From the NCBI RefSeq assembly GCF_003337555.1, contig NZ_QPJK01000007.1, positions 258,553 to 322,552 on the forward strand: a DNA stretch of 64,000 nucleotides, given 5' to 3'. Numbering within the stretch: position 1 is the stretch's first letter; each line of letters starts with the position of its first letter. The position numbers and the translations under genes were made by a program. The DNA is from Pseudorhodoferax soli. Lineage in GTDB: Bacteria; Pseudomonadota; Gammaproteobacteria; Burkholderiales; Burkholderiaceae_C. Under the pieces are notes generated by a model. The model was not told the origin of the DNA and did not search any database. It worked only from the letters and a program-made list of their open reading frames with translations. Positions 14,530 through 60,797 of this stretch are shown here, piece after piece.

Positions 14530-16875
<2,346 letters not shown>

Positions 16876-40698: not shown

Positions 40699-40758
40699 CC
40701 GAGTAATTCGCTATGAAACATCGATTCTGACCAATAAATTGGGATGGCGGTATACATT
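40685..40758. promoter_or_regulatory. Divergent vanR-vanA control region with paired GTATACATT boxes
   Basis: The 9-mer GTATACATT occurs at 40687-40695, inside the 10-bp palindrome ATGTATACAT, and again at 40750-40758, 63 bases apart. The region between is A/T-rich compared with the genes. Two identical boxes in a 90-base divergent region next to a GntR gene are good candidates for its operators. The first lies just inside the regulator's reading frame, the second 30 bases before vanA. Confidence 0.6.
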
Positions 40759-40788
40759 AGAACCCTAATTAAACCCCACGGAGACCGC

Positions 40789-41844
40789 ATGTTCCCGCGC
40801 AACACCTGGTACGTCGCCTGCACGCCCGACGAGATCGACGCCAAACCCCTGGGCCGCCAGATCTGCGGCGAGCACATCGTGTTCTACCGCGCCGGCGACG
40901 GCCAGGTCGCGGCGCTGGAAGACTTCTGCCCGCACCGCGGCGCCAAGCTCTCGCTGGGCAGCGTGTGCGAAGGCCAGCTGGTCTGCGGCTACCACGGGCT
41001 GGTGATGGGCTGCGACGGCAAGACCGTCTCCATGCCCGGCCAGCGCACAGCGGGGTTCCCGAAGATCCGCGCGTTCCCGGTGGTCGAGCGCCACGGCTTC
41101 ATCTGGGTCTGGCCGGGCGATGCCGCGCTGGCCGACCCCGCCGCCATCCACCACCTCGAATGGGCCGACAGTCCCGACTGGGCCTACGGCGGCGGCCTGT
41201 ACCACCTCCAGGCCGACTACCGGCTCATGATCGACAACCTGATGGACCTCACGCACGAGACCTACGTGCACGCCAGCAGCATCGGCCAGAAAGAGATCGA
41301 CGAGGCGCCCGTGGGCACCAAGGTCGAGGGCGGCCAGGTCGTCACCAGCCGCTTCATGGAGAACGTGATGGCCCCGCCCTTCTGGCGCGCCAACCTGCGC
41401 GGCAACCACCTGCCCGACGACCAGCCGGTGGACCGCTGGCAGGTCTGCCGCTTCACGCCGCCCAGCCACATCATGATCGAGGTGGGCGTGGCGCTCGCGG
41501 GCCAGGGCGGCTACCACGCGCCCGCGGAGCAGAAGGTCTACAGCATCGTGGTCGACTTCATCACGCCGGAGACGGAGACCTCGCACTGGTACTTCTGGGG
41601 CATGGCGCGCAACTTCAACGTGAAGGACAAGGCGCTCACGGCGCAGATCCGCGAAGGCCAGGCCAAGGTCTTCGCCGAAGACACGGCCGTGCTCGAGGCC
41701 CAGCAGCGCAATCTCTCGCTGCACCCGGGGCGCCGGCTGCTGATGCTCAACATCGACGCGGGCGGCGTGCAGTCGCGCAAGCTGCTCGACAAGATGGTCG
41801 CGGCGGAACAGGCGGCGGCAAGCCCTGTCGCCCAGGCGGCCTGA
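40789..41844 (+). CDS. vanA: Vanillate O-demethylase, oxygenase subunit
   Basis: A 351-residue Rieske oxygenase. MFPRNTWYVACTPDEIDAKPLGRQICGE is the VanA start. The Rieske cluster ligands are Cys47, His49, Cys66 and His69, and the mononuclear iron motif DxxHxxxxH appears in NLMDLTHETYVHASS. With VanB it oxidises the methoxy group of vanillate, releasing formaldehyde and protocatechuate, the substrate of the lig operon about 13 kb away. GGAG lies 7 bases before this ATG, so an ATG 45 bases upstream (inside the control region) is rejected. The vanB gene starts one base after the stop. Confidence 0.95.
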   Translation: MFPRNTWYVACTPDEIDAKPLGRQICGEHIVFYRAGDGQVAALEDFCPHRGAKLSLGSVCEGQLVCGYHGLVMGCDGKTVSMPGQRTAGFPKIRAFPVVERHGFIWVWPGDAALADPAAIHHLEWADSPDWAYGGGLYHLQADYRLMIDNLMDLTHETYVHASSIGQKEIDEAPVGTKVEGGQVVTSRFMENVMAPPFWRANLRGNHLPDDQPVDRWQVCRFTPPSHIMIEVGVALAGQGGYHAPAEQKVYSIVVDFITPETETSHWYFWGMARNFNVKDKALTAQIREGQAKVFAEDTAVLEAQQRNLSLHPGRRLLMLNIDAGGVQSRKLLDKMVAAEQAAASPVAQAA

Positions 41845-41845
41845 G

Positions 41846-42802
41846 ATGGACACGATCACCGTCAAGGTCCTGCGCAAGACGCAGGAGGCACAGGACATCG
41901 CCAGCTTCGAACTCGCGCGTGCCGATGGCGGCCCGCTGCCGGCATTCAGCGCGGGCTCGCACATCGATGTGCAGATCCCCGGTGGGCTCACCCGCCAGTA
42001 CTCGCTGTGCAACGACGACCAGGAGTCGCACCGCTACCGCATCGCCGTGCTGCGCGATGCGGCCTCGCGCGGCGGCTCGCAAGGCATGCACGAACAGGTG
42101 CGCGAAGGCGATGTGCTGACCATCAGCACGCCGCGCAACCACTTCCCGCTGGTGCGCGCCGAGCGCACATTGCTCCTGGCTGGCGGCATCGGCGTGACGC
42201 CGCTGCTGTGCATGGCGCAGCGCCTGGGGGCGCTGGGCGCAGACTTCGAACTGCACTACTGCACGCGCTCGGCCGAGCGCACGGCCTTCCGCGCCGAGAT
42301 CGCAGCCGCGCCCTTCGCCGATCGCGTGCACCTGCATTTCGACGATGGCGATGCGGCGCAGAAGCTCGACGCCGCGCGCCTGCTGGCTGCGCCCGCGCCC
42401 GGCACGCACGTCTACGTCTGCGGCCCGACGGGCTTCATCGACCACGTGGTCGGCACGGCCGCAGCGCAGGGATGGGACCAGGCCAACGTGCACCTCGAGT
42501 ACTTCGGCGCCGCGCCGCAGGACACCAGCGGCGATGGCAGCTTCGCCGTGCGCATCGCCAGCAGCGGCCAGACCTACACCGTGGCCAAGGACCAGAGCGT
42601 GGTGCAGGCGCTGCTCGCCCATGGCATCGAGATCCTGACCTCCTGCGAGCAAGGCGTCTGCGGCACCTGCGTCACGCGCGTGCTGGAGGGCGAATGCGAG
42701 CACCGCGACCTGTACTTCACAGACGAGGAGAAGGCGAAGAACGACCAGTTCACGCCGTGCTGCTCGCGGGCGAAGAGCGCGGTGCTGGTGCTGGACTTGT
42801 AG
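41846..42802 (+). CDS. vanB: Vanillate O-demethylase, reductase subunit
   Basis: A 318-residue iron-sulfur flavoprotein. The flavin domain contains the RQYSLCND motif (about residue 51) that binds FMN, the NAD domain has LLLAGGIGVTPLLCMAQRL and YVCGPTGFID, and the C-terminal plant-type [2Fe-2S] domain has the Cys cluster CEQGVCGTC with a later Cys near CCSRAK. It passes electrons from NADH to VanA. Length matches known VanB (about 315). The vanAB pair is followed by a convergent Bug gene 15 bases away. Confidence 0.95.
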   Translation: MDTITVKVLRKTQEAQDIASFELARADGGPLPAFSAGSHIDVQIPGGLTRQYSLCNDDQESHRYRIAVLRDAASRGGSQGMHEQVREGDVLTISTPRNHFPLVRAERTLLLAGGIGVTPLLCMAQRLGALGADFELHYCTRSAERTAFRAEIAAAPFADRVHLHFDDGDAAQKLDAARLLAAPAPGTHVYVCGPTGFIDHVVGTAAAQGWDQANVHLEYFGAAPQDTSGDGSFAVRIASSGQTYTVAKDQSVVQALLAHGIEILTSCEQGVCGTCVTRVLEGECEHRDLYFTDEEKAKNDQFTPCCSRAKSAVLVLDL

Positions 42803-42817
42803 CGCGGCCCGCCACCC

Positions 42818-43816
42818 TCATTCGAGCTGCAGGCCGATCTCCTTGACGAGGGCGGCCCAGTCGCGCAGGTCCTGCGCGATCGTGGCCGCGAACTGCTCGG
42901 GCGTGGTCTGCGGCAGATCGCTGAAATTCAGCTCGCGCATGCGCTGGACCACGACCGGGTCCTTCAGCGCCGCGTTCACCGCTTCGTTGAGCTTGTTCAC
43001 GATCGCCGGGGGCGTCTTCGCGGGTGCAAGCAGGCCGTACCAGGCGTAGTTGCGGAACGGAAAGCCGGCCTCGTTCATGGTCGGCACGTCGGGCAGCATC
43101 GGCAGGCGCGAAGGGCCGCTGTTGGCCAGCGCCTTGAGCCTGCCAGAGCGCACCATCTCCACCGTCGTGGACGTGTCGGCGAAAGCCGCATCCACCTGCC
43201 CACCCATCAGGTCATTCACACAGGGGCTGCTGCCCTTGTACGGCACGTGCACCAGCTGCATGCCGGTCTGCTTCTTGAGGCTTTCCATGGCCAGGTGGCC
43301 GCCCGAGCCGGCGCCCCACGAGCAGTAGCTCAGCTTGTCGGGCCGGGCCCTGGTGTAGTCGACGAACTCCTTCAGCGTCGTGACCGGCAGGTCTTTGCGC
43401 ACCAGCAGCAGGTTGCCGCCGCGGCCGATCTGCGCCACCGGCGCGAAGTCCTTCGCCGGATCGTAGGACAGCTTCTTGTACAGGCTGGGATTCACGACCA
43501 CTGCGGCGGCGTAGGCGAACAACAGGCGGTAGCCGTCGGGCGCGGCCCGCGCGCCGGCTTCCACGCCCAGGATGCCGTTGGCGCCGGGCCGGTTCTCGAC
43601 CACGAAGCTCTGGCCCAGCCGCTTGCCCAGCGCCTCGGCCACCACGCGCGCGATGGTGTCGGTACCGCCGGCCGCGGCCGTGGGGACCACCAGGGTCACG
43701 GGCTTGTCGGGATAGGTGTCGGCCACTGCTCCTTGCGCGGCCTGCGCGGCTTGGGCCGCCAGAGCGGCGCAGGCCACCAGCGCCAGCGGCGCCCAGCGTT
43801 TGAACCAGTGCTGCAT
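42818..43816 (-). CDS. Bug-family (TctC-type) periplasmic solute receptor, last gene of the porin operon
   Basis: A 332-residue receptor from the chosen ATG, with a signal (MQHWFKRWAPLALVACAALAAQA). Bug motifs: YPDKPVTLVVPTAAAGGTDTIARVVAEAL, GQSFVVENRPGANGILG, KLSYDPAKDFAPVAQIG and LSYCSWGAGSGGHLAMESL, the last with an unusual Cys. There are two possible starts. The ATG at 43816 has an ideal GGAG 7 bases ahead; an ATG at 43843 overlaps the previous stop by 4 bases (ATGA) and adds nine residues (MTTTTRRRD). It ends convergently with vanB. A carboxylate ligand is expected, identity unknown. Confidence 0.88.
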   Translation of the reverse strand: MQHWFKRWAPLALVACAALAAQAAQAAQGAVADTYPDKPVTLVVPTAAAGGTDTIARVVAEALGKRLGQSFVVENRPGANGILGVEAGARAAPDGYRLLFAYAAAVVVNPSLYKKLSYDPAKDFAPVAQIGRGGNLLLVRKDLPVTTLKEFVDYTRARPDKLSYCSWGAGSGGHLAMESLKKQTGMQLVHVPYKGSSPCVNDLMGGQVDAAFADTSTTVEMVRSGRLKALANSGPSRLPMLPDVPTMNEAGFPFRNYAWYGLLAPAKTPPAIVNKLNEAVNAALKDPVVVQRMRELNFSDLPQTTPEQFAATIAQDLRDWAALVKEIGLQLE

Positions 43817-43839
43817 GTCTCGTCTCCGTGTGGTCGTTG

Positions 43840-45093
43840 TCATCGGATGCTGAACCTCGCCTGCGTGCCCTGCTCAAGCATGTCGGCGCTGGCCCGGTAC
43901 AGGTTGCGCGACACGTAGCTGGACACCTCTGCCGCGCGCTGGCGCAACCAGGCGGCCTTGAGCCGGCGGGCCTCGGCGATCTCTGCGGCCGCGCCGTCGG
44001 CCGTGGCCAGCAGGTCGATCACGTGCAGCGCCAGCTGCACGCGGCCCTGGTCGGCCAGGGCGCTGGCCTGGTCGATCACGGCCTGCTTGTCGGTGATCGC
44101 GTCGGCCACCGCCCGGCCCACGGCCTCGGGCGGCTCGGGGTGCAGCGAGGTCGGGTTGCGGTCCCACCAGCCATTCTCCGAGCGGTAGATGTCCCGCACG
44201 ATGTAACTGGGATCACCGTACGCGGGCTTCATCCACTCGACGCCGAACAGTTCGTCCGGCAAGTGGATGCGCGCCAGCAGTTCGCGCTCGCCCAGGCCCT
44301 CGTTCATGAGCCGCACCACCTCGGCGCGCAGCCAGCGCAGCGCGTGTGCCGTGTGTCCGAGCACGTGCTGCACCTCCGCTTCGCCGACGATGCTGGGGCC
44401 GAACTCGCGCACCGCCAGCCGCGGGCCGAGCGCGGCCAGCGCGTCCAGCGTGTCGGCCCAGCGCACGGTGTCGCGCAGCGTGCGGAACGGCGTGCCGATG
44501 TTGGGGATGGAATCGATCAGCGCCGCGCCACCGTACAGCACGCGCTGCGCCGGGCTCCACAGCGCGATCGCGTCGTCGGTCTCCGATGGCGCCCAGCGCA
44601 GCTCGATGCGGCGCTCGCCCTGGCCGATCGCCAGCACTTCGTCGAAGGTCTCGACCGGCGCGTGCAGCGGCAGCCGCTGTGCGAAGAAGCCGGCCGGCCG
44701 CCGGAACTGGATCTCGGCCATGCGCTGCTGCAGCGCATGCGTCTCGCGGTAGCGCGCCAGGCGGCGCGGCACGTTGCGGTGCGCGATGACACGCGGCGGC
44801 GCGTCGCCGCGTTCGGCGGCATGCGCCAGCCACTGCGGCAAGCCCGCGTTGTAGCCGATGTGGCCATGGCTGAAGCACAGCGCGTGCAGCGGCGCGTCGG
44901 ACAGCCGCCGCACCGCCTCGAGCATGCCCTGCGTGACCGAGCCGCCGGGGCCGGTGTCCACGACGACCAGGCCGGCATCGGTCTCGGCGACGAAGGACTG
45001 GCCCTGGCCGCGCAGGATGTGCAGGCCCGGCGCCACGGTCTCCGTGCCGCTGCCGACGATCAGGAACGGCTTGTCCTCGACGGCGTTGCTCAT
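43840..45093 (-). CDS. Metallo-beta-lactamase-fold protein, alkyl-sulfatase-like, with altered metal motif
   Basis: A 417-residue protein. The N-terminal half (about 1-230) follows the MBL fold (GLVVVDTGPGGSVTQGMLEAV, then FSHGHIGYNAGLPQWL), and the C-terminal part from about 270 resembles the dimerisation domain of SdsA/Pseudomonas-type alkyl sulfatases (WMKPAYGDPSYIVRDIYRSENGWWDRNPTSLHP, a very characteristic stretch). The usual HxHxDH metal motif reads His76-Gly-His78-Ile-Gly80-Tyr81, so Asp and the third His are missing. Either the metal site is rebuilt or the enzyme is not a normal hydrolase. It overlaps the DUF1254 gene by 4 bases. Substrate unknown. Confidence 0.82.
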   Translation of the reverse strand: MSNAVEDKPFLIVGSGTETVAPGLHILRGQGQSFVAETDAGLVVVDTGPGGSVTQGMLEAVRRLSDAPLHALCFSHGHIGYNAGLPQWLAHAAERGDAPPRVIAHRNVPRRLARYRETHALQQRMAEIQFRRPAGFFAQRLPLHAPVETFDEVLAIGQGERRIELRWAPSETDDAIALWSPAQRVLYGGAALIDSIPNIGTPFRTLRDTVRWADTLDALAALGPRLAVREFGPSIVGEAEVQHVLGHTAHALRWLRAEVVRLMNEGLGERELLARIHLPDELFGVEWMKPAYGDPSYIVRDIYRSENGWWDRNPTSLHPEPPEAVGRAVADAITDKQAVIDQASALADQGRVQLALHVIDLLATADGAAAEIAEARRLKAAWLRQRAAEVSSYVSRNLYRASADMLEQGTQARFSIR

Positions 45094-46421
45094 GCCAGCT
45101 CCTCAACGCGCGTCACGGCCGGCAACGCATAGCGGCCGTCCAGCAGCTCGGCACGCGGCACATAGGCGCGCAGGCACAGGTAGAAGCCACCCACAGGCGC
45201 CGGAAGCCAGTTGGCGCGCGCGGCGGCATCGGCCGGCGCCGCGTGCGCGATGTGCAGCGTGAGCCCGCCATCGGCGTCGCGCTGCAGGCCGGGCGTGCGG
45301 TCGCCGATGGCGTAGCGGTCGATCGGGTTGTCCACCAGCATGTAGTCGCCGCTGTCGTACAGCGTGATCGACCAGAACGCATCCACCGGCGGCAGCGCGC
45401 CGGGCGCGAAGCGCAGCCGGTAGCGCCGGCTGCCGTCGAGCGCCTGGCCGGCGGCGTCGCGCCAGGCGATCGGGTAGGTCGCCTCGCGGCTTTCCAGCAT
45501 GCCGATGTACTTCAGCGCCACGAGCGCGCGGAGCAGATGGTCGCCGCCGAAGCTGCCCTCCACCACCGGCATCAAGGTCCAGCCCGAAGCCGTGACCTCG
45601 CCGGCCTGCTGCTCGCGCATGCGCGGCAGGACCGCGTCGAGCGCGGCCTGCAGCAGGTCGCGCTGGGCCGCGTCCGGCGGGCCGGCGTCGGCGCCGATGC
45701 CCAGCGCCGCGAAACGCGCCCAAAGCGCGGCCTCGGCCGCAGGCGGCGGGTTCTCACGCAACGCGCGGTTGACCTGGTCCACGAAGTGCGCAGCCCCGAG
45801 CGGCGCCTTCGGGTCGCAGGCCGGGTCGAAGGCCAGCGGGCGCGGCGCCGCGCCCGCCTGCCAGTCGGCCAGCGGCCGCACGGTGAAGCCGTCCTGCAGC
45901 GCGTTGACGGCGGCCACGTCCTGCGGGCCGTCGACCAGGATGCGGCCGATGATCCACAGCCAGCGCGTGGGCGCCGCGATGTGCGCGCCAGGCACGTCGA
46001 AACCGGCCGGCAGCGGGCCCGCCCAGCCCGGCGGCGTGACCAGGAACGCGCGCGCCCGGGTGCCCGTGCGCCGCTGGCCGATGTGGGCGAAGGGCTCGGT
46101 GTAGAAGTCCAGCAGGCCCAGCACGTAGTAGCGCCCCGCCGTGTCCGGCACGTCGATCACGAGCGGCCCGGCGCCCAGGTCGAGCCAGGCATTGGTGTAC
46201 AGCGTGTCGTTGTTGGGCGTGACCACGCGGCTCTTGCCGGCGCCCAGCAGTGCGCGCGCATGCGTGAACACGTTGCACCAGCGCTGGCCCTCCGGTGCCG
46301 CGCCGGCGCCATCGGTGCGGCGCGGCGAGGTGGCCGCACGCATGCGGGCCATCTCGTAGAGCGGGTAGGCGCTGACCACGGCCTCTTCGGCCAGCGCTCG
46401 GTTTGCGATCGCGGCCACCAT
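45090..46421 (-). CDS. DUF1254/DUF1214 protein, copy 1
   Basis: A 443-residue protein with an N-terminal DUF1254 domain (VVSAYPLYEMARMRAAT, VVTPNNDTLYTNAWLDLGAGPLVIDVPDTAGRYYVLGLLDFYTEPFAHIG) and a C-terminal DUF1214 domain (RRYRLRFAPGALPPVDAFWSITLYDSGDYMLVDNPIDRYAIGDRTPGL). The function of these domains is not established. There is no obvious signal peptide; relatives are often exported. It follows the second copy by one base and overlaps the MBL gene by 4, so it is firmly in the operon. The two copies share the same domain layout and C-terminal motifs but differ clearly in the N-terminal half. Confidence 0.88.
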   Translation of the reverse strand: MVAAIANRALAEEAVVSAYPLYEMARMRAATSPRRTDGAGAAPEGQRWCNVFTHARALLGAGKSRVVTPNNDTLYTNAWLDLGAGPLVIDVPDTAGRYYVLGLLDFYTEPFAHIGQRRTGTRARAFLVTPPGWAGPLPAGFDVPGAHIAAPTRWLWIIGRILVDGPQDVAAVNALQDGFTVRPLADWQAGAAPRPLAFDPACDPKAPLGAAHFVDQVNRALRENPPPAAEAALWARFAALGIGADAGPPDAAQRDLLQAALDAVLPRMREQQAGEVTASGWTLMPVVEGSFGGDHLLRALVALKYIGMLESREATYPIAWRDAAGQALDGSRRYRLRFAPGALPPVDAFWSITLYDSGDYMLVDNPIDRYAIGDRTPGLQRDADGGLTLHIAHAAPADAAARANWLPAPVGGFYLCLRAYVPRAELLDGRYALPAVTRVEELA

Positions 46422-46422
46422 C

Positions 46423-47802
46423 TCAGGCCTCCACCGCTTGGAGCGCCGGGATGCGCCAGCTGCGCACGCCCTCGCGCGGGTGGTACAGGCGCAGGATCAG
46501 GTAGAAGGGGCCGGCCGGCGTCGGCAGCCAGTTCGCGGTGCGTGGCGGCGGCGTGTGGCCGAAGTCGATCTGCAGGCTGCCGTCGGCGTCGAATTGCAGG
46601 CCCGGCGTGCGGTCGCCGATGGCGTGCCGGCGCGCTGCGTTGCGGTACAGGAAGCGGTCGGCGTCGTACAGCGTGACCGACCAGAAGGCCTCGGCCGGCG
46701 GCATCTCGTCGGGCGCGAAACGCAGCGTGTAGCGGCGGCGCCCGTCCAGCGGCGCGCCCTGGCTGTCGAAATGGCCGGCACCGTACAACGCCTCGTCCGT
46801 GGCCAGGGCGCCCAGCCCGATGTAGGCCGTCAGCGCGCGCGCCAGGTAGTCGTGGCCATAGCGGCCTGCGCGCGAGGCCAGCACCCAGGGCCGGGCGCGG
46901 CGGCTGCGCGCGGCCGCGGCCACCAGCGCGACGCCTTCGGCGAAGCCTTCGACCAGGCCTGCACGCAGCGGCGCGTCCATGCCGTCCCAGGCCAGGTTGC
47001 CACCGGCCACCAGCCCGGCCTGGCCGAACCAGGCGACGAGGCCCTGGTCCTCGGTGCGGCCCGGCGCGTCGGCGAGCGCGCGGCACAGGTTGGCGAAGAA
47101 CGGCGGCGCCACCTGCGCGGCGGGTTGGCCCTGCTCGAAGCAGGCGGCCATCGCGTCGAAGGGCGCGCCTTCCCAGTTCTCGACGCCGCGCGGCCGCCGC
47201 CCGGTCAGCGTGCCCGGCGCGGGCGCCAGCCCGATGCCGGCCTGCAGCGCGCGCGCGGCCGGCCAGTCGGCCTCGTCGCCGGCGAGGATGCGGCCGATCA
47301 GCCAGACCAGCGTGGTCGGGCAGCGCAACACGCGGTGGCCCGCCAGCGCCTCGGGCACCTGGCCACCCGGCCCCACCAGCAGCACCGTCTCGCCCACCGC
47401 CGCGCAGTTGCGCGGGCCGAGGTTCTCGAAGTTCTCTGTGTACGCGTCGTACAGCGCGAGCACGAAATAGCGGCCCCGATGCGCGGCCGAAGACGGCACC
47501 GTCAGCAGGCGCGGTCCGTCGCCCAGGTGGATCCAGCCCGTGCTGTAGAGCAGGTCGTTGGCCGGCGTGACGATGTCGCGGTCCTGGTCGGTCGAGGGGC
47601 GCGGGCTGTGGTGCAGCCGGTCGATCGGCACGCGTGCGTCCGAGCCCTCGTCCGCGCCTGCCGCCGCCGCCGAGGTCTGCAGCCGGCAGGTGCGGAAGGA
47701 TTCGACCAGCGGGTAGCCGTAGACGAAGGCCGACAGGCCGATGGCGCGGGCCTGGGCCTGGCGCGCGGCGGCCAGAGCGGCCGGGGATGGTGGGGTATGC
47801 AT
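46423..47802 (-). CDS. DUF1254/DUF1214 protein, copy 2
   Basis: A 459-residue paralogue of the gene downstream. DUF1254 is seen in AFVYGYPLVESFRTCRLQTSA and DIVTPANDLLYSTGWIHLGDGPRLLTVPSS... RYFVLALYDAYTENFENLG; DUF1214 in RRRYTLRFAPDEMPPAEAFWSVTLYDADRFLYRNAARRHAIGDRTPGLQFDADGSLQ. The central part (about 200-320) is poorly conserved between the copies. No signal peptide is evident. GGAG lies before the ATG. Tandem DUF1254 genes with a synthetase, two receptors and a porin suggest that both act on one imported compound. That is inference. Confidence 0.88.
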   Translation of the reverse strand: MHTPPSPAALAAARQAQARAIGLSAFVYGYPLVESFRTCRLQTSAAAAGADEGSDARVPIDRLHHSPRPSTDQDRDIVTPANDLLYSTGWIHLGDGPRLLTVPSSAAHRGRYFVLALYDAYTENFENLGPRNCAAVGETVLLVGPGGQVPEALAGHRVLRCPTTLVWLIGRILAGDEADWPAARALQAGIGLAPAPGTLTGRRPRGVENWEGAPFDAMAACFEQGQPAAQVAPPFFANLCRALADAPGRTEDQGLVAWFGQAGLVAGGNLAWDGMDAPLRAGLVEGFAEGVALVAAAARSRRARPWVLASRAGRYGHDYLARALTAYIGLGALATDEALYGAGHFDSQGAPLDGRRRYTLRFAPDEMPPAEAFWSVTLYDADRFLYRNAARRHAIGDRTPGLQFDADGSLQIDFGHTPPPRTANWLPTPAGPFYLILRLYHPREGVRSWRIPALQAVEA

Positions 47803-47827
47803 GGGGTGGTCTCCTGGTTCGACGGTT

Positions 47828-48817
47828 TCAGTCCAGCTTGACGCCGGTGGCCTGGATCAGCCGCAGCGTGACGGGCAGCGACTGGCGGTAGGCGGCCGCG
47901 GCTTCCTCGGGCGTGTTCCCGACCGGCTCGGCACCGAGCTCTTCGATGCGGCGGCTGACCTCGGGCTGGCGCACGGTCTCGGCCACGGCGCGGCCGATCC
48001 TGGCCACCACCGCGTCGGGCGTGCGGGCCGGCGCCATCAGCGAGGTCGGCCCGGTCTGGGCGTAGACCTCGTCGGGGTAGCCCTGCTCGGCGAAGGTCGG
48101 CACCGTGGGCAGCGCCCGTGCGCGCCGCGTGCCGGCCACGGCCAGCGGACGCAGCTTGCCGGCCGCGATATAGGGCTGCAGCGTGGTGACGGAGCCCACG
48201 GTCATCTGGATGGTGCCGGCGATCAGGTCGATCGCCATCGGCCCCTCGCCCTTGTAAGGCACGTGCAGGGTGCGCAGGCCGTAGGTCTTGTCCATGTAGA
48301 CCTGGACCTGGTGCGGCTGCGTGCCGGGTCCCCAGGAGCCCATGGCATAGCGCCCCGGTGCCTGCTTCAGCGCGGCGACCAGGCTGCCGACGTCCTGCGC
48401 CGGCACCGAGGGGTGCACCGCCAGCACCGTGCGCATGGTGGCGACGTCGGAGACCATGCGCAGGTCGGTGCGCGGGTCGTACGGCAGCTTGCCGTACAGC
48501 GCGAGGTTGGCGGCCACGGGGCCCGGCGTGGTCAGCAGCAGCGTGTGGCCGTCGGGCGCGCTCTTGGCCACATGGTCGGTGCCGATGATGCCGCCCGCGC
48601 CGCTGCGGTTCTCCACCACCACGGGCTGGCCCAGCTTCCTGGAGAGCCTCTCGGCCAACAGGCGCGCCAACGTGTCGGTCGAGCCGCCGGGCTGGTACTG
48701 CACGATGATGCGGACCGGCTTGGACGGGTAGTCCGGCTCGGCCGCGCCCGCCATGCCGAGCCAACCCAGGGACGGCAGCGCCAATGCACCGCCCAGCAGG
48801 TGGCGGCGGCGCGTCAT
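47828..48817 (-). CDS. Bug-family (TctC-type) periplasmic solute receptor, third gene of the porin operon
   Basis: A 329-residue receptor with a signal (MTRRRHLLGGALALPSLGWLGMAGAAE; the RRR start is Tat-like). Bug motifs: YPSKPVRIIVQYQPGGSTDTLARLLAERLS, GQPVVVENRSGAGGIIGTDHVAKS, KLPYDPRTDLRMVSDVA and YAMGSWGPGTQPHQVQVYM. Its ATG overlaps the acyl-CoA synthetase stop by 4 bases (ATGA). Together with the receptor at 42818 it gives the operon two receptors of different sequence, perhaps for two related acids. Confidence 0.9.
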   Translation of the reverse strand: MTRRRHLLGGALALPSLGWLGMAGAAEPDYPSKPVRIIVQYQPGGSTDTLARLLAERLSRKLGQPVVVENRSGAGGIIGTDHVAKSAPDGHTLLLTTPGPVAANLALYGKLPYDPRTDLRMVSDVATMRTVLAVHPSVPAQDVGSLVAALKQAPGRYAMGSWGPGTQPHQVQVYMDKTYGLRTLHVPYKGEGPMAIDLIAGTIQMTVGSVTTLQPYIAAGKLRPLAVAGTRRARALPTVPTFAEQGYPDEVYAQTGPTSLMAPARTPDAVVARIGRAVAETVRQPEVSRRIEELGAEPVGNTPEEAAAAYRQSLPVTLRLIQATGVKLD

Positions 48818-50931
48818 GCGGCGCTCCCGACGACCAGCGCGTCCACCGCCACGCAGCCGCCCTCGCCCGCCGGGCGCGCGATCAGCGGATTGATCTCCGC
48901 GCTGGCCAGCGTGTCGCCGGCGCGCAGCGCGAAGTCCGCAAGCGCCTGCAGCGTGGCGGCCAGGGCGTCCCGGTCCACCGGCGGGCGGCCGCGCGCACCG
49001 TCCAGGATGGCGGCACCGCGCAGTTCGCGCAGCATGGCCTGCGCGTCGCCCGGCGCCAGCGGCAGCGGGCGCAGCGCCACGTCGCGCAGCGTCTCCACAT
49101 GGATGCCGCCCAGGCCGAACATCAGGATGGGCCCGAACACCGGGTCGCGGTGCACGCCGGCGATGCACTCCACGCCGGCGCCATCCACCATGCGCGCCAC
49201 GAGCGCGCCGTCCAGCCGCGCACCGGGCAGCGCGGCCCGCGCGCTGACGCGGGTGCGTTCGAACGCGGCGCGCACCTGGGCTGCGCCCTGCAGCCGCAGC
49301 GCCACGCCGCCCACGTCGGACTTGTGCGCGATGTCGGCGCTGACGACCTTCAGGGCCACCGCACCGCCCAGGGCTTCGGCCGCCGCGGCAGCCTCGTCGG
49401 CGCCATGCACCACCCGGTAAGCGACCACGGGCACGCCCGCATCGGCCAGCAGCGCGAGCGCCGCCGGCTCGGACAAGGCGCCCGGCGCCAGCACGACCGG
49501 GGTGCCCCGCGGGGGCGCGGCAGCGGCCACCGCCGCACCGGGCGCGGGCAGGCCGGCCAGCGCGGCGATGGTGCGGATGCCGTCCGACGGGTCGGCGAAC
49601 ACCAGGCAGCGCATGGCCTCCAGTTCGGCGCGCCGCGCGGGCGACAGCAGCGTGCTGATGGCCAGCAGCGTGTCGGGATAGGCCTCGCGCAACGCGGCCA
49701 CGAGGCTGCGCAACACCGGCCAGAACGCATCCGACGCGCCGGCCGCCGCCAGGAAGCCCAGCCACGATGCAAAGCGCTGGTCGTCCAGCATCACGCGTGC
49801 GCTGCGCTCCATCAACGTCATGTCGTTGGTGACCTGGCCGGTGATGTCGACCGGGTTGCGCGGCGCCGCGAACGGCACCCAGTCGCGCAGGCGGTCCTGC
49901 GCGGCAGTGCTGAGCGGCCGCACATCCAGGCCCTGGGCGCAGGCATCGTCTGCCATCAGCGCGCCGACGCCGCCCGACAGCGTGAACAGCCCGATCGAGC
50001 GGTCGCGCGGCCGGCCCGCCACTGCGGCGCTGTGGGCCAGGTCGAAGAACTCGGTCAGCGTGCGCGCGCGCAGCACGCCGTAGCGGCGGAAGACCGCGTC
50101 GTAGACCGCGTCGTCGCCGGCCAGAGCCGCCGTGTGCGAGGCAGCGGCCTGCGCACCCAGTGCGGTGCTGCCGACCTTGACCATCACCACCGGCTTGCCC
50201 GCGGCCTGCGCCAGCGCCAGCGCCGCGCGCAGCCGCGGGCCGTCGCGGCAGCCCTCGATGTAGCCCATGATCACGTCGGTGCCCGGATCCTGCGCGAGCC
50301 AGGCCAGGCAGTCGGCGAACTGCACATCGGCCTCGTTGCCAGTGGTGGCCCAGAGCGACAAACCGACGCCGCGCTCGCGCGCCATGGCATAGGCATAGGC
50401 GCCGAACGCACCCGACTGGCTGACCAGCCCGATGCGCCCGGGCTGCACGCGCCCCACGTTGGGCGCGGGCGAGAAGGTCGCGTACACATGGCGCGCGACG
50501 TTCATAAAGCCCAGGCAGTTCGGCCCGATCAGCCGCACGCCGGCCGCACGCGCCCTGGCGCCCAGCCGTGCCTGTGCCGCCGCCCCGTCCGCGCCGATCT
50601 CGGCGAAGCCCGACGAGAACAGCACCACGCCCTTGACGCCAGCGGCCACCGCGTCGTCGAACGCACCATCCACCAGCGGCGCGGGCACGGCCAGGATCGC
50701 CAGGTCCACCGGCTGGCCGATGGCGCGCAGGCTGGGCCAGGCCGGCAGGTCCTGGATGCGGTCGGCCTTCGGGTTGACGGGATACACGGCACCGCCGAAG
50801 CCGAAGCGGCGCTGGTAGTCGACCGGGATGCCACCGATCTTCTGCGCGTTGGACGATGCGCCCACCACCGCGATGGAGCGCGGTGCGAACAAGGCCGACA
50901 GGCCGGCATGCTGGGAAGTGAAGAGGTCCAT
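48814..50931 (-). CDS. NDP-forming acyl-CoA synthetase, fused alpha and beta domains
   Basis: A 705-residue protein of the acetyl-CoA synthetase (NDP-forming)/succinyl-CoA synthetase superfamily. In order: CoA-binding domain (LFAPRSIAVVGASSNAQKIGGIPVDYQRRFGFGGAVYPVNPKADRI), ligase domain with the phosphohistidine region ASHTAALAGDDAVYDAVFRRYG (about residue 255), and a C-terminal ATP-grasp domain (ALALLADAGVPVVAYRVV, VALKVVSADIAHKSDVGGVALRL, FGPILMFGLGGIHVE, SAEINPLIARP). It should join a carboxylic acid to CoA with ATP or GTP. The acid is unknown. It follows the porin gene by 11 bases and overlaps the Bug gene by 4. Confidence 0.92.
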   Translation of the reverse strand: MDLFTSQHAGLSALFAPRSIAVVGASSNAQKIGGIPVDYQRRFGFGGAVYPVNPKADRIQDLPAWPSLRAIGQPVDLAILAVPAPLVDGAFDDAVAAGVKGVVLFSSGFAEIGADGAAAQARLGARARAAGVRLIGPNCLGFMNVARHVYATFSPAPNVGRVQPGRIGLVSQSGAFGAYAYAMARERGVGLSLWATTGNEADVQFADCLAWLAQDPGTDVIMGYIEGCRDGPRLRAALALAQAAGKPVVMVKVGSTALGAQAAASHTAALAGDDAVYDAVFRRYGVLRARTLTEFFDLAHSAAVAGRPRDRSIGLFTLSGGVGALMADDACAQGLDVRPLSTAAQDRLRDWVPFAAPRNPVDITGQVTNDMTLMERSARVMLDDQRFASWLGFLAAAGASDAFWPVLRSLVAALREAYPDTLLAISTLLSPARRAELEAMRCLVFADPSDGIRTIAALAGLPAPGAAVAAAAPPRGTPVVLAPGALSEPAALALLADAGVPVVAYRVVHGADEAAAAAEALGGAVALKVVSADIAHKSDVGGVALRLQGAAQVRAAFERTRVSARAALPGARLDGALVARMVDGAGVECIAGVHRDPVFGPILMFGLGGIHVETLRDVALRPLPLAPGDAQAMLRELRGAAILDGARGRPPVDRDALAATLQALADFALRAGDTLASAEINPLIARPAGEGGCVAVDALVVGSAA

Positions 50932-50942
50932 GGTCCTGGCTT

Positions 50943-51998
50943 TCAGAAGGTGTGGCGGATGCCCGCCGCGAGCACGCGCACGCCATCGCCGCTGTCCGCA
51001 ACAACGGGAACGCCGGCCAGCGTTGCCGAGGCGCCGCTGCGGTTGTCCAGGCCGAGCCAGCGCGCGTACAGCGCGGTGCGCTTGCTCAGGTGGTGGTCGT
51101 AGCCCAGCGTCCAGGCGACTTGCGCGCGCGCGCTGCCGTCCACCTTGCGCCGGATCGCCTCGACGATCAGCGTGGACACCGGGGTGACGGGGTACGAGGC
51201 ACCGAGCGCGAACAGCACGGCGTCCGGCACGCCCGGCAGACGCGCCGTGGTGCGCATCCCGTGCGCGTACAGCGCCAGATCGGTGAACTGGTAGCTCGCG
51301 CTCAGCGCGTGGTAGGTGGTGACGGCCGGCACTGCCACCGGCGCCGCGGCCGAGCCGGAGCGCACACGCTGGAACGCATAGCCCACGTACCAGGGTTTGC
51401 GCTGCCAGCCGAACGCGGCGCCCTTGAACTCCCCGCTGCGCCGGCTCGACGTGGCCGCCTTGCCCGGCGCATAGGCGATGTCTGCGACGAAGGGGCTGGC
51501 CACGGGCGTGCGGTAGCGCAGCATGCCGCTGGCGCGCGCTGCAAACGCCGTGATGCCGGGCTGCGCGTCGGTGGCCGACACCAGGTTCAGCGGCGAGAAC
51601 ACGGCGTTCACGCCGTAGGGATCGGCCTTGAACAGCGTGTAGAACATCGGCGTGTACATGCGGCCCGCGTCGAGCTGGCCCCAGGCGCCGGAGAGGCCCA
51701 CGAAGGCCTGGCGCGAGAACGCGAGGCTGGGACCGGGCAGCGTGCCGGCGCCGGTTTCGGGGTTGTAGCCGGCCTCCAGCAGAAAATGCGCTTCGAGACC
51801 GCCGCCGAGGTCCTCGGTGCCGCGAAAGCCGATGCGCGAGGCGGTGTGTCCGCCATCCTTGAGCCCTGTCGTGGTATGGCCGCCCGAACTGTCGCGCGAC
51901 AGGTACAGGTCGGCCGTGCCGTAGAGCGTCACGCTGCTTTGCGCGCACGCACCGCCCCACGCCGCGAGCGCGAACACCGCGCCGGCTGTCTTGTTCAT
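50943..51998 (-). CDS. Outer-membrane porin (Gram-negative type)
   Basis: A 351-residue porin. The signal MNKTAGAVFALAAWGGACA is followed by QSSVTLYGTADLYLSRDSSGG, the standard N-terminus of Burkholderiales trimeric porins (SSVTLYGxxDxgl). SRIGFRGTEDLGGGLEAHFLLEAGYNPETG and SRQAFVGLSGAWGQLDAGRMYTP are also typical, and the protein ends in Phe (GIRHTF), needed for BAM insertion. It gives small solutes passage across the outer membrane. It is the first gene of the seven-gene operon, with a candidate -10 and a Crp-family palindrome upstream. Confidence 0.94.
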   Translation of the reverse strand: MNKTAGAVFALAAWGGACAQSSVTLYGTADLYLSRDSSGGHTTTGLKDGGHTASRIGFRGTEDLGGGLEAHFLLEAGYNPETGAGTLPGPSLAFSRQAFVGLSGAWGQLDAGRMYTPMFYTLFKADPYGVNAVFSPLNLVSATDAQPGITAFAARASGMLRYRTPVASPFVADIAYAPGKAATSSRRSGEFKGAAFGWQRKPWYVGYAFQRVRSGSAAAPVAVPAVTTYHALSASYQFTDLALYAHGMRTTARLPGVPDAVLFALGASYPVTPVSTLIVEAIRRKVDGSARAQVAWTLGYDHHLSKRTALYARWLGLDNRSGASATLAGVPVVADSGDGVRVLAAGIRHTF

Positions 51999-52055
51999 CT
52001 GCCTTGTCTCCGTGCTTGTAATGACCGGCTCTACGATAGAAACGCCTGCCGAACG

Positions 52056-52079
52056 AATCTGTCAACGCGTTGACAGATT
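52056..52079. promoter_or_regulatory. Perfect 24-bp palindrome, probable Crp-family operator
   Basis: AATCTGTCAACG is followed at once by its exact reverse complement. The core TGTCA-N6-TGACA has the same layout as the CRP site TGTGA-N6-TCACA. Its centre is 41.5 bases upstream of the start predicted from a -10-like TATCGT for the porin (minus strand, 52038-52033), the position for class II activation. It is also 27 bases before the GTG of the divergent Crp-family gene, so it may autoregulate. Confidence 0.78.
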
Positions 52080-52106
52080 TGCCAACATGGCGCCCGTGAG
52101 AACCCT

Positions 52107-52838
52107 GTGACGCAGACCGACCCCACCCTTGCCGACGGCACCGACAGTGCCGCGCTGATGACCCGCGCGCTGCGGCTGGTGCAGCTGTTCAGCACCTGGC
52201 CCGATGCGAGGCTGGCGCAACTGATCCGCTCGGCCCGCCTGCACCGCTACACGCGGCGCACGCAGCTGCTGTCCGACGACCGGCACAAGCGCGAACTGCT
52301 GGCGGTGGTCTCGGGCTGCCTGGAGATCAGCAGCAGCAGCGCGCAGGGCCGCAAGTACGTCAACACGCTGCTCGGCGCGGGCCAGGTGGCGCCGCTGGTG
52401 CGCCTGCTCGACGATGTGCCGCTGCCCTACGACTACCACGCGCACGAGGACTCGGTGATCGTCCACCTGCCCTGCGACGCAGTGATCGCCGTGCTCGATG
52501 CGGAACCGGTGCTGTGGCGGGGCGTGGCCCAGCTGGCGCTGCAGCGCCAGCGCCAGAGCGTCGCGCTGCTGCAGAACCAGATGCTGGCGCCGGTGCGCGC
52601 CCGCGTGGCGGCCACGCTGCTGAGCCTGGCGCAGATCTACGGTGCACAGGACCAGGGCGGCCTGGACCTGCGCGTTCGGCTCTCGCAGAACGACCTGGCG
52701 GCCATGCTCTCGCTGTCGCGCCAGACCATCAACAAGGAGCTGGGCCGGCTGGTCGAGGAGGCCGTGATCGAACGCCGGTACAAGCACATCACCATCGTCG
52801 ATGGCGAGGCACTGCGCCGCATCGCGGCGCTGCCCTGA
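52107..52838 (+). CDS. Crp/Fnr-family transcriptional regulator
   Basis: A 243-residue regulator. The N-terminal cyclic-nucleotide-binding-like beta-roll spans about residues 25-140 but lacks the usual cAMP phosphate motif and has no Cys cluster for iron-sulfur sensing. The C-terminal winged helix contains RVRLSQNDLAAMLSLSRQTINKELGRLVEEAVIERRYKHITI, where SRQTINKEL is the recognition helix (consensus SRxTVxRxL). The start is GTG; no ATG fits before the domain. It is divergent from the porin operon across a perfect palindrome and is the best candidate to control it. The signal is unknown. Confidence 0.88.
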   Translation: MTQTDPTLADGTDSAALMTRALRLVQLFSTWPDARLAQLIRSARLHRYTRRTQLLSDDRHKRELLAVVSGCLEISSSSAQGRKYVNTLLGAGQVAPLVRLLDDVPLPYDYHAHEDSVIVHLPCDAVIAVLDAEPVLWRGVAQLALQRQRQSVALLQNQMLAPVRARVAATLLSLAQIYGAQDQGGLDLRVRLSQNDLAAMLSLSRQTINKELGRLVEEAVIERRYKHITIVDGEALRRIAALP

Positions 52839-52844
52839 GCGGAC

Positions 52845-53843
52845 TCAGCCGCGCCCGCGCAGCGTGGCCGAAGGCGCCTCGCCGAAGCGCTGCGCATAGG
52901 CCTGGGCGAACCGGCCCAGGTGCGTGAAGCCGCAGTCCAGTGCCACCGTGGCCACGGTGGCGTGGGCCTGCGGTTCGCGCAGCCGGCGGTGCGCCACGTC
53001 GAGCCGCAGCGCGCGCAGGTACTGCATGGGGCTGCAATCGCGCGCCTGCTGGAAGGCCTCTTGCAGCGTGCGCACCGGCACGCCGGCGGCGCCTGCGATG
53101 TCGGCCATGCGCAGCGGCTCGTCGGCGTACTCGCGCATGTAGGCCTCGGCGCGGCGCACGCAGGCGCGGCCGCCCTGCCCTGTCCGCAACACGGGCGCGG
53201 CCGGCACCTCCTGCCAGGGCTGGCCGGCCAGCAGCAGCTGCACCAGCAGGCGCTCCATTTCCAGCGCCACCAGCGGATGCGCGTGCACGGCTGCCAGCAT
53301 GGGCTCGGCGTTGAGCAGCAGGTGCAGCTGCTGCAGCCAGGCCTGCAACGCCGGGCGGCGCAGGTCGAAGGCGGTGTCGAAGCGGATCGGCCGGCCGGCG
53401 TGGGCTTCCAGCATGCGGCGGTCCAGCCGCAGCACCAGCTGTTCGGCATCGGCCGACAGCGCAGCCAGGAAGCGCTCGCCAGGGGCGCAGGCCAGGCCCT
53501 GCAGGCCGCGCGTCTGCAACGCTTGGCCACCGACCAGCGTGTCGGCCTGGCCGCGCAGGCAGAACATCAGCAGGTGGTAGTCCTCCACATGCTCGACATC
53601 CACGCGCATGGCCTCGCCGAAGGCGATGGTGCCGATGCCGATGCCGCCCACGCGGAGATAGTCCATGTGGGCACGCCCGCCGTGCGCGCGCGCGATCGGC
53701 TGCAGGCCGTGCGGCTGCATCACGCGCGAGATGCGCTCGCGCGTGTCTTCCAGGTCGTCGGATTCGAACAGGCGGCGCGCACGCAGCAGCGCGGGCTCGA
53801 ACGCGCAAGGCGTGGCTGGACGGAAGGTCTGGCTGGGCAACAC
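52845..53843 (-). CDS. AraC-family regulator of the ring-hydroxylating oxygenase cluster
   Basis: A 332-residue regulator with an AraC-binding-like N-terminal domain (about 20-190: YLRVGGIGIGTIAFGEAMRVDVEHVEDYHLLMFCLRGQADTLVGGQ) and the C-terminal double HTH (about 235-325: LRMADIAGAAGVPVRTLQEAFQQARDCSPMQYLRALRLDVAHRRL and ATVATVALDCGFTHLGRFAQAYAQRFGEAPSATL). This is the layout of XylS/BenR/AntR-type activators of aromatic oxygenases. It is divergent from the oxygenase genes, and direct repeats lie in the gap. The inducer is probably the oxygenase substrate. It is convergent with the Crp-family gene, 6 bases apart. Confidence 0.9.
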   Translation of the reverse strand: MLPSQTFRPATPCAFEPALLRARRLFESDDLEDTRERISRVMQPHGLQPIARAHGGRAHMDYLRVGGIGIGTIAFGEAMRVDVEHVEDYHLLMFCLRGQADTLVGGQALQTRGLQGLACAPGERFLAALSADAEQLVLRLDRRMLEAHAGRPIRFDTAFDLRRPALQAWLQQLHLLLNAEPMLAAVHAHPLVALEMERLLVQLLLAGQPWQEVPAAPVLRTGQGGRACVRRAEAYMREYADEPLRMADIAGAAGVPVRTLQEAFQQARDCSPMQYLRALRLDVAHRRLREPQAHATVATVALDCGFTHLGRFAQAYAQRFGEAPSATLRGRG

Positions 53844-53890
53844 GGGTGCTCTGGCGCAAGAAGCGCGCCAGCGGCGCCTGGCCGCAAACG

Positions 53891-53935
53891 GCTGCGCAAA
53901 ACGGACGACCCCGCCGTGCTGCCGCGCAAAGCGGA
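53891..53935 (+). promoter_or_regulatory. Direct-repeat activator site for the oxygenase operon
   Basis: GCTGCGCAAAACGGA (53891-53905) and GCCGCGCAAAGCGGA (53921-53935) are 13 of 15 identical, 30 bases apart start to start, about three helical turns. The second continues as GGATA, fitting the GGNTA half of the XylS-type site (TGCA-N6-GGNTA). AraC activators bind tandem repeats of this kind just upstream of -35. An A/T-rich AAGAAT (53960-53965) could be the -10. AGGAGG is at 53999-54004. Confidence 0.6.
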
Positions 53936-54013
53936 TAGCCAGCGCCCCCTGGGCCTTCCAAGAATGGCCCCACCCGCCGCCCCGGTGCGGCGCATGCCAG
54001 GAGGACCCGACCC

Positions 54014-55300
54014 ATGAACCACCCCGTCGACATCAGTGCACTGAAATCGATCAAAGCCACGGCCGAGGCGGCCCGGCTGGTGCATTTCCCGCAGGCCGAC
54101 GGCTCGCGCGTGCCCTACGAAGTCTTCAGCTCGCAGGAGGTTTTCGAACGCGAACAGGAGCGCATCTACCGCGGCCCGACCTGGAGCTTCGTCGCGCTGG
54201 ACGCCGAGATTCCCAACCCAGGCGACTACAAGAGCACCTTCGTCGGCGACACGCCCGTGGTCGTCACGCGCACCGAGGACGGCGGCGTGGCCGCCTGGGT
54301 GAACCGCTGTGCGCACCGCGGCGCCATCGTCTGCCGCAACGCGCGCGGCAACGCCACATCGCACACCTGCGTCTACCACCAGTGGAGCTTTGACACCCGC
54401 GGCAACCTGCAGGGCGTGCCGTTCCGGCGTGGCCAAAACGGTGCACCGGGCATGCCGGCCGACTTCAACCCGAAGAACCACGGCCTGCGCCAGCTGCGCG
54501 CCGAGAGCTACAGCGGCCTGGTGTTCGCCAGCTTCAGCGCAGAGGCCCCGCCGCTGGCCGAGTACATCGGCCCGCAGATGGCGCCCTGGGTCGACCGCGT
54601 GATGCACAAACCGGTGGTGTACCTCGGTTGCACACGGCAGTACGCGCGCTCCAACTGGAAGCTGTACTACGAGAACGTGAAGGACCCCTACCACGCCAGC
54701 CTGCTGCACCTGTTCCACACCACCTTCAACATCTTCCGCGTGGGCATGAAGGCGCGCTCCATCGCCGACGTGCGGCACGGCCTGCACAGCATCATCACGG
54801 CGACCAAGGTGGACGAGAGCGACACCGCCACGGCCTACAAGCAGCAGGCCATCCGCTCGATGGACGAAGGCTTCCACCTGGAGGACGACTCGGTGCTGGG
54901 CTTCGTCTCCGAGTTCGCCGAAGACTGCACCAACCACATCCAGACCATCTTCCCGCAGCTGGTGCTGCAGCAGATCCACAACACGCTGGTGGCGCGCCAG
55001 GTGCTGCCCAAGGGCCCGGGCGAGTTCGAGCTGGTTTTCCACTTCTTCGGCTACGCCGACGACACGCCCGAGCTGCGCGCGTTGCGCATCAAGCAGGCCA
55101 ACCTGGTCGGCCCGGCCGGCTACATCTCGATGGAAGACACCGAGGCCACCGAACTGGTGCAGCGCGGCACGGCGCGCGACGCCGACGCCACCTCGGTCAT
55201 CGAGCTGGGCCGCTCCGACCCGACGCGCGAGGACACCATGGTCACCGAGAACCTGATCCGCAAGTTCTGGACGGGCTACCAACAGCTGATGGGGTATTGA
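54014..55300 (+). CDS. Aromatic ring-hydroxylating oxygenase, large (alpha) subunit
   Basis: A 428-residue Rieske oxygenase. The Rieske ligands are Cys99, His101, Cys119 and His122. The catalytic iron triad is Asp224, His227 and His232 in NVKDPYHASLLH, with the exact spacing of naphthalene dioxygenase. The N-terminal part (VPYEVFSSQEVFEREQERIYRGPTWSFVALDAEIPNPGDYKS) and the motif QGVPFRRG resemble salicylate 5-hydroxylase (NagG) and three-component anthranilate dioxygenase (AndAc). It hydroxylates a benzoate-like ring using O2 and electrons from the ferredoxin. Salicylate, anthranilate and related acids are the main candidates. AGGAGG lies 9 bases ahead. Confidence 0.92.
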   Translation: MNHPVDISALKSIKATAEAARLVHFPQADGSRVPYEVFSSQEVFEREQERIYRGPTWSFVALDAEIPNPGDYKSTFVGDTPVVVTRTEDGGVAAWVNRCAHRGAIVCRNARGNATSHTCVYHQWSFDTRGNLQGVPFRRGQNGAPGMPADFNPKNHGLRQLRAESYSGLVFASFSAEAPPLAEYIGPQMAPWVDRVMHKPVVYLGCTRQYARSNWKLYYENVKDPYHASLLHLFHTTFNIFRVGMKARSIADVRHGLHSIITATKVDESDTATAYKQQAIRSMDEGFHLEDDSVLGFVSEFAEDCTNHIQTIFPQLVLQQIHNTLVARQVLPKGPGEFELVFHFFGYADDTPELRALRIKQANLVGPAGYISMEDTEATELVQRGTARDADATSVIELGRSDPTREDTMVTENLIRKFWTGYQQLMGY

Positions 55301-55301
55301 G

Positions 55302-55829
55302 ATGACGACGACGCTTGCAGAACGCCCGGCCACCACATCTGACGCGCCGGCCACCATCGACAGCCTGCTGCTCTGGTTCGAGATCCACCAGCTGCACGAG
55401 CGCTACTGCGCCGCGCTGGACAACGACCGGCTGGAGGAATGGGCCACGCTGTTCACCGAGGACTGCCTGTACGAGATCGTGCCCAAGGAAAACGCCGACC
55501 TGGGCCTGCCCATCGGCCTCATCCACTGCAACAACCAGCGCATGCTGCGCGACCGCGTCGTATCGCTGCGCCACGCCAGCATCTACGAGGACCACAGCTG
55601 CCGCCACATGACGGGCGGGCTGGTGCTGGCACCGCAGGCCGATGGCAGCGTGCACGCCGAGTCGAACTACGTGGTGGTGCAAACGCGCACCAACGGCGAG
55701 AGCTTCGTCTACCAGGCCGGCCGCTACCTCGACCGCATCGTGCGCACGCCGCAAGGCTGGCGCTACGCCGAGCGCCGGGTCATCTACGACACCTCGCGCG
55801 TCATCACCCTCCTGGCAACCCCCATCTGA
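55302..55829 (+). CDS. Aromatic ring-hydroxylating oxygenase, small (beta) subunit
   Basis: A 175-residue protein of the ring-hydroxylating beta-subunit family (NTF2-like cone fold): EIHQLHERYCAALDNDRLEEWATLFTEDCLYEIVPKENADLG, then CRHMTGGLVLAPQADGSVHAESNYVVVQTRTNGESFVYQAGRYLDRIVR. It has no cofactor and holds the alpha3beta3 hexamer together. One base separates it from the alpha gene. The N-terminal 20 residues are low complexity and specific to this protein. Confidence 0.92.
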   Translation: MTTTLAERPATTSDAPATIDSLLLWFEIHQLHERYCAALDNDRLEEWATLFTEDCLYEIVPKENADLGLPIGLIHCNNQRMLRDRVVSLRHASIYEDHSCRHMTGGLVLAPQADGSVHAESNYVVVQTRTNGESFVYQAGRYLDRIVRTPQGWRYAERRVIYDTSRVITLLATPI

Positions 55830-55830
55830 C

Positions 55831-56172
55831 ATGGACACCACCATCCTGCAGCCTGCGGCCTGGACCGACGTGGGCGAGCCCGATGACTTCCCGGACGGCG
55901 CGGTGTGGCCCGTCGTGGCTGGTGGCATGCCGATTGCTATGTTCAGGCAAGGGGAGTCGCTGCATGCGCTGCACGACCTGTGCACGCACGGCAACGCCCG
56001 GCTGTCGGACGGCTACGTCGAGAACGGCCGCATCGAATGCCCGCTGCACCAGGGCCTGTTCGACATCTGCACCGGCGCGGCCTGCGGCGGCCCGGTGACC
56101 GAGGCCGTGCGCAGCTATCCGGTGCGCGTGCGCGACGGCCGCGTCGAAGTCGCCACGCCGCTTCTCCCCTGA
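55831..56172 (+). CDS. Rieske-type ferredoxin of the oxygenase
   Basis: A 113-residue [2Fe-2S] Rieske ferredoxin. The ligands are in CTHGNARLSDGY (Cys-x-His) and CPLHQGLFD (Cys-x2-His), and the size matches NagAb/AndAb (about 105-110). It carries electrons from a ferredoxin reductase to the oxygenase. The start is the ATG one base after the beta-subunit stop. The next gene is a transporter component, and no reductase (NagAa/AndAa type) is present in the operon or the window, so the reductase must be supplied from elsewhere. Confidence 0.93.
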   Translation: MDTTILQPAAWTDVGEPDDFPDGAVWPVVAGGMPIAMFRQGESLHALHDLCTHGNARLSDGYVENGRIECPLHQGLFDICTGAACGGPVTEAVRSYPVRVRDGRVEVATPLLP

Positions 56173-57394: not shown

Positions 57395-57407
57395 ACGCGC
57401 GCGCCGC

Positions 57408-60077: not shown

Positions 60078-60078
<1 letters not shown>
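59317..60078 (+). CDS. livG: Branched-chain amino acid-type ABC transporter, ATP-binding protein LivG (second system)
   Basis: A 253-residue ABC ATPase. Walker A is LIGPNGAGKSTLVNLISG, then RAGLSRCFQITSIFREATVRDNLLL, the signature region is LPHGAQRKLDVALAL and Walker B is LLLLDEPMAGMGPEDSERM, followed by ILLIEHDMKAVFALADRISVLVYGKVL. The signature is altered (LPHGAQRK in place of LSGGQ), as usual for LivG. Its ATG overlaps the livM stop by 4 bases, and its TGA shares a base with the livF ATG. Confidence 0.93.

Positions 60079-60797
<719 letters not shown>

Follow-up and report, generated by a model that had tools for sequence, protein, structure and literature searches.

The window analysed here is a stretch of 64,000 nucleotides from Pseudorhodoferax soli (contig NZ_QPJK01000007.1, positions 258,553 to 322,552), and it contains seven minus-strand genes running from 51998 to 42818 in the order porin, nucleoside diphosphate (NDP)-forming acyl-CoA synthetase (ACS), Bug2, DUF1254a, DUF1254b, an altered metallo-β-lactamase (MBL) protein and Bug1. 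It is proposed that these genes probably make up a mobile module for the catabolism of one carboxylic acid class, under the control of a Crp-family regulator of its own. The gene order and the operator-like site conserved between loci indicate, at the level of sequence, that the module is genuine and that the regulator is dedicated to it.

Gene order and predicted operator of the module

Genome contigs were scanned with the MBL protein, which returned 149 relatives; the best 80 loci were kept, 52 of them betaproteobacterial (one named only as Pseudomonadota) and 28 from other groups, and module content was taken from phmmer matches (E up to 1e-5) to six-frame open reading frames. All seven genes occur in the same order in 23 of the 52 betaproteobacterial loci, counting plus-strand matches only and ignoring repeats, and five further loci have DUF1254a-DUF1254b-MBL-Bug1 only; among the remaining 24, at least three (L052, L053 and L062) are truncated at contig ends. 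The complete order was seen in Variovorax, Comamonas, Delftia, Xenophilus, Pseudacidovorax and the window's own genus, with differing surroundings where these were inspected, while the parts are reshuffled in Cupriavidus, Verticiella, Noviherbaspirillum and others. The sequence-only reading, made earlier without database searches, had taken the genes as one unit, and as a co-inherited unit they are supported by these counts. The genome co-occurrence check that it suggested gave DUF1254 together with ACS near the MBL gene in 38 of the 52 loci, and a DUF1254 gene in 44, within the fetched flanks. The gene caller, which is based on GC content at third codon positions, misses or inverts genes in some loci and called the MBL gene in 53 of the 80.

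A separate sample of 149 whole genomes contained seven in which the MBL is matched closely (E below 1e-170), four of them from one genus, and each of the seven carries two or more DUF1254 genes no farther than about 8 kb from the MBL gene. DUF1254 was present in 18 of the 142 sampled genomes without a close match and in neither of the two genomes of that genus that lack the MBL. Only six of 399 genomes drawn from the order match the MBL at E below 1e-150, so the distribution of the module is patchy.

The six junctions are tight: porin and ACS are separated by 11 bases, Bug2 and DUF1254a by 25, and DUF1254a and DUF1254b by 1, and there are 4-base overlaps at ACS/Bug2, DUF1254b/MBL and MBL/Bug1. 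From this spacing and the conserved order we infer that the seven genes are co-transcribed; neither a terminator-like site nor a sigma-70 consensus site was found in 42600-52300. The porin (Porin_4) lies first at 50943-51998, followed by ACS at 48814-50931 (705 aa, a fused protein with CoA_binding, Succ_CoA_lig and ATP-grasp_5), Bug2 at 47828-48817, DUF1254a at 46423-47802, DUF1254b at 45090-46421, the MBL protein at 43840-45093 (Lactamase_B and Alkyl_sulf_dimr) and Bug1 at 42818-43843, which has an alternative start at 43816. Bug1 and Bug2 are TctC-type periplasmic receptors, and both DUF1254 proteins carry DUF1254 and DUF1214 domains over the gathering scores. The order, strand, coordinates, families and junctions given in the sequence-only reading were all correct, with a Pfam match behind each family.

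The divergent regulator gene (52107-52838, plus strand; cNMP_binding and HTH_Crp_2) encodes a protein with the recognition helix SRQTINKE, and between it and the porin lies a perfect, gapless 24-bp palindrome of two 12-base arms, AATCTGTCAACG/CGTTGACAGATT, at 52056-52079. All 28 loci whose Crp homologue scores above 150 bits have an operator-like site at the operon promoter, and each of these sites is the best match in its own locus, with no arm mismatches in 12 loci, three in 6, four in 3 and five in 7. The helix reads SRQT[IV]NK in all 30 Crp rows, two of which are the window's own gene. In L081 the crp gene has been relocated between ACS and Bug2, yet the site is still found at the porin. 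Within three mismatches the operator occurs once in the 8.16-Mb genome. Crp-type sites have six bases between 5-base half-sites, and a core of TGTC[A/G]-N6-[T/C]GACA (TGTCA-N6-TGACA in the window) is present in every site except that of L051. These data back the earlier suggestion that the Crp-family protein across the palindrome is the likely regulator and support 52056-52079 as the predicted operator of a dedicated local regulator. Both arms contain TTGACA, which may place the site over the -35 regions of the two promoters. When symmetry alone is scored, another stretch is the best palindrome in 16 of the 28 loci, and the operator is found in this way only in Pseudorhodoferax and Variovorax. 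Among the 84 loci scanned, the unrelated L105 and L109 also have one match each with five mismatches, so the weakest operator sites rest on position and not on score. Five Cupriavidus loci (L061, L065, L066, L067 and L069, at about 16330-16760) have a different Crp-like gene, preceded by a palindrome-like site of its own that differs from the window's operator by six mismatches.

The altered metallo-β-lactamase protein

The MBL protein has 417 aa, with Alkyl_sulf_dimr matching residues 270-409, and the chain ends after that domain. The description of this protein as altered was borne out, since SHGHIGYN replaces HxHxDH. H76 and H78 are kept, and where canonical proteins have the ligands D, H, H, D and H the window protein reads G80, Y81, W167, A190 and F231, so that five of the seven columns that are metal ligands in MBL enzymes differ from the nearest canonical kin. 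Those kin (L108, L109, L129, L008, L126, L127, L128 and L121) keep T/SHxHxDH, the H before the ETDD/ETED stretch, and the later D and H; at the same columns the window's clade has G or S, Y, W (A, H and A in three added basal rows), a small residue for D, and F. Because these ligand columns are replaced, a binuclear centre as in the kin cannot form, and the earlier suggestion of a possible hydrolase fails insofar as an ordinary hydrolase was meant.

What the clade has instead is strongly conserved. Over 34 aligned sequences SHGHxGYN is fixed, save x and the nearly invariant G80; Y81, W167 and F231 are invariant in all 34, as are S75, H76, H78, N82, S170, E171, D173, D174 and E230. At column 190 the window has A; the clade varies there between A, P, S, C and N, and neither D nor E appears in any row displayed. 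A larger alignment of 117 rows, some of them repeat fetches of one gene, has 90 rows with GY or SY, 25 with DH and 2 with AH. In a tree of 51 and 25 rows after thinning at 88% identity, from which the two AH rows were excluded and which carries a long-branch warning, a branch with support 100/99 separates off the altered clade, which spans Actinomycetota, Myxococcota and Pseudomonadota. On plasmid pBB2 of C. necator N-1 two altered MBL genes stand in tandem (L107:10562-13224); the first, which is one of the basal rows, keeps His at column 167 and is a possible intermediate in the loss of the metal site.

We tentatively suggest that an old MBL-fold clade has given up its binuclear centre and gained a new conserved site (H76, H78, Y81, W167, S170, E171, E230 and F231), at which acyl or CoA esters would react by metal-independent or mononuclear chemistry. 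In Burkholderiales the clade would be tied to the paired DUF1254 proteins. The same alignment can be read in another way, namely that the MBL protein would be a pseudoenzyme, acting without metal as a binding subunit or as a scaffold, with an acyl or CoA ester, DUF1254 or ACS as its partner. The alteration of five of seven ligand columns, three of them to aromatic residues that are invariant in the 34 rows (W167 being A, H or A basally), is in line with this possibility, but the invariant polar residues at 75, 76, 78, 82, 170, 171, 173, 174 and 230 resemble an active site, and we regard it as doubtful.

The likeness to alkylsulfatases raises a further alternative, in which the substrate would be an acid with a sulfate ester (or another ester) and the MBL protein a modified, single-metal alkylsulfatase using H76, H78 and E171. 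The protein has the alkylsulfatase dimerisation domain, its predicted structure (mean pLDDT 88.9) matches best the fold of the sec-alkylsulfatase Pisa1 (TMq 0.82, target-normalised TM 0.55), and E171 aligns with the Glu of alkylsulfatase rows; a single metal may be bound at these three residues. A type I sulfatase gene lies near the MBL gene in L056 (Pfam, CSPTR) and a sulfatase-like gene adjoins it in L099 (by eye, CQPAR). However, the clade lacks the D and H of HxHxDH, D or E at column 190 and H at column 231, and sulfatases were recognised in 2 of the 80 loci, where no systematic search for them was made. Zinc alkylsulfatases have HxHxDH, further Glu and His metal ligands and a C-terminal SCP2-like domain. 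SdsA1, Pisa1 and YjcS (2cfu, 2yhe, 4pdx) share the MBL and dimerisation domains and the fold (TMq about 0.8) with the window protein, whereas the latter, at 417 aa, has no further (SCP2-like) C-terminal domain and differs from them in four metal-ligand columns; it thus has the domains of a zinc alkylsulfatase and neither its HxHxDH/Glu/His ligands nor its C-terminal domain. We consider sulfate-ester use improbable. Closer in the tree are the canonical short MBL-dimerisation proteins of Terrarubrum (L108, of similar length) and Ensifer (L109), which form the sister group and keep T/SHGHxDH, H, D and H, unlike the window's clade. The MBL-type sulfatase of acesulfame degradation was set aside, as it is described as Mn-dependent and so has a different active site.

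Proposed route and genomic surroundings

Carboxylate catabolism at the CoA level is favoured because it fits the neighbouring genes best. In the proposed route the porin would admit the compound across the outer membrane, Bug1 and Bug2 would bind it in the periplasm and pass it to a TctAB permease presumably encoded elsewhere, and ACS would form the acyl-CoA with ATP in the cytoplasm. DUF1254a, DUF1254b and the altered MBL protein would then act on the acid or its presumed CoA ester, and β-oxidation-type enzymes would finish the degradation, encoded beside the module in some Cupriavidus loci and otherwise in the chromosome. Signal-like N-termini were seen by eye in the porin, Bug1 and Bug2 and in none of ACS, DUF1254a, DUF1254b and the MBL protein, which are therefore taken as cytoplasmic. 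The reshuffled Cupriavidus loci also carry a CaiB-type CoA-transferase, an enoyl-CoA hydratase and acyl-CoA dehydrogenases (Pfam on the examples L058, L061 and L063); in L063 the CoA-transferase, the hydratase and two dehydrogenases adjoin the MBL gene. Plasmid pBB2 of C. necator N-1 has ACS, three Bug genes, the two MBL genes, an α/β hydrolase and an IclR regulator. The genome of the window has a second DUF1254-CoA-Bug association (L130, C4:574500-593500), where a third DUF1254 gene stands beside Bug genes and a CaiB-type CoA-transferase 51% identical to the Cupriavidus one.

The step of CoA activation, already proposed from the sequence, is supported by the domain family of ACS, in which SHTAALAG is presumably the phospho-His loop. 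The protein shares domains and fused architecture with NDP-forming synthetases (3-hydroxypropionate-, 4-hydroxybutyrate- and acetate-CoA ligases, and the DddX-type dimethylsulfoniopropionate lyase 7cm9), but all seven NCBIfam scores are far below their cut-offs, no curated substrate subfamily is reached, and its substrate is hence not readable. The sequence-only reading had further seen a full uptake-and-activation route with two receptors for two ligands. Activation stands by family, while uptake is incomplete within the operon. Two TctC-type proteins are indeed present, nearly full-length homologues of BugD and the terephthalate-binding protein TBP, but they are unremarkable among the at least 150 TctC genes of the genome. 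As the receptor of a tripartite tricarboxylate transporter (TTT), Bug1 and Bug2 have no TctA or TctB beside them; a genome-wide search for TctA gave 8 genes, all off the window's contig (C7).

Several points weigh against the proposed module function. Since the MBL protein was the query by which the loci were picked, the conservation holds only given its presence. There is no DUF1254 gene within the fetched flanks of 8 of the 52 betaproteobacterial loci (L053, which is contig-cut, L061, L065, L066, L067, L068, L069 and L095), five of which (L061, L065, L066, L067 and L069) are from Cupriavidus, and L095 has neither DUF1254 nor ACS there. None of the 20 proteins scanned at 39853-60797 is a TctA or TctB permease. 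The other operon genes were found in none of the 28 non-betaproteobacterial loci, and because the neighbours there differ as well, the MBL protein may have a role beyond this pathway. In 26 of these 28 loci the scan took in as many as six of the nearest called genes, and the 129 neighbour proteins, counted without a background set, include 8 cytochromes P450, 7 PhyH, 5 TauD and 4 acyl-CoA dehydrogenases. In Myxococcota (L076, L087 and L090) the order PhyH-like gene (by cluster and eye), hybrid PAS histidine kinase (Pfam on the L076 copy) and MBL is repeated, and CysD/CysN/adenylylsulfate (APS)-kinase-like genes, recognised by eye, lie at L082:5706-9137, a few kb from an Acidimicrobiales MBL gene.

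The genes on either side of the operon might suggest that it serves an adjacent anthranilate or VanA-type aromatic pathway. AndR and AndAc of an anthranilate 1,2-dioxygenase cluster (52845-56172) both score over the NCBIfam cut-offs and are followed by a branched-chain-type ABC (ATP-binding cassette) transporter (56201-60797), and a VanA-type Rieske oxygenase with its VanB-type reductase lies on the opposite side (40744-42802). Such flanks accompany the module in only three other loci of the 80, all of the window's genus by the assignment in the genome collection (L026-L028, recorded as Variovorax boronicumulans DE0202, Pseudorhodoferax aquiterrae and Pseudorhodoferax sp. Leaf265), whereas Variovorax, Comamonas, Delftia and others carry it elsewhere. 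Being confined in this way, the And/Van neighbours are uninformative on the substrate; membership of the operon in this aromatic neighbourhood was rejected, and a role in either pathway appears very unlikely.

Relation to described systems

No described pathway with this gene set was known to the sequence-only reading, and searches of open-licence papers brought up nothing recognisable as a match. The catabolism of 3,3'-thiodipropionate in Variovorax was considered and rejected: passages of PMC6370202 give a TTT as only one import hypothesis, and porin, lactamase and DUF are absent from its main text. DUF1254b is a sequence homologue of VPA0106 (3u07), and proteins of the VPA0735-like DUF1254/DUF1214 fold (3u07, 2p3y), homologous over most of its length, are deposited as uncharacterised or hypothetical; the parts of PMC2744874 and PMC10734457 consulted give no function for DUF1254/VPA0735-type proteins.

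DUF1254/DUF1214 proteins are thus represented by structures deposited as uncharacterised and are rarely named in the open-licence literature; an operon this compact, in which linked genes come with a regulator and an operator of their own, opens their function to direct testing. The MBL clade would be an example of a metalloenzyme fold that has persisted in several phyla although most of its metal ligands were lost. If an MBL protein with a new site is indeed tied to the paired DUF1254 proteins, this would be the first pathway role for DUF1254 proteins.

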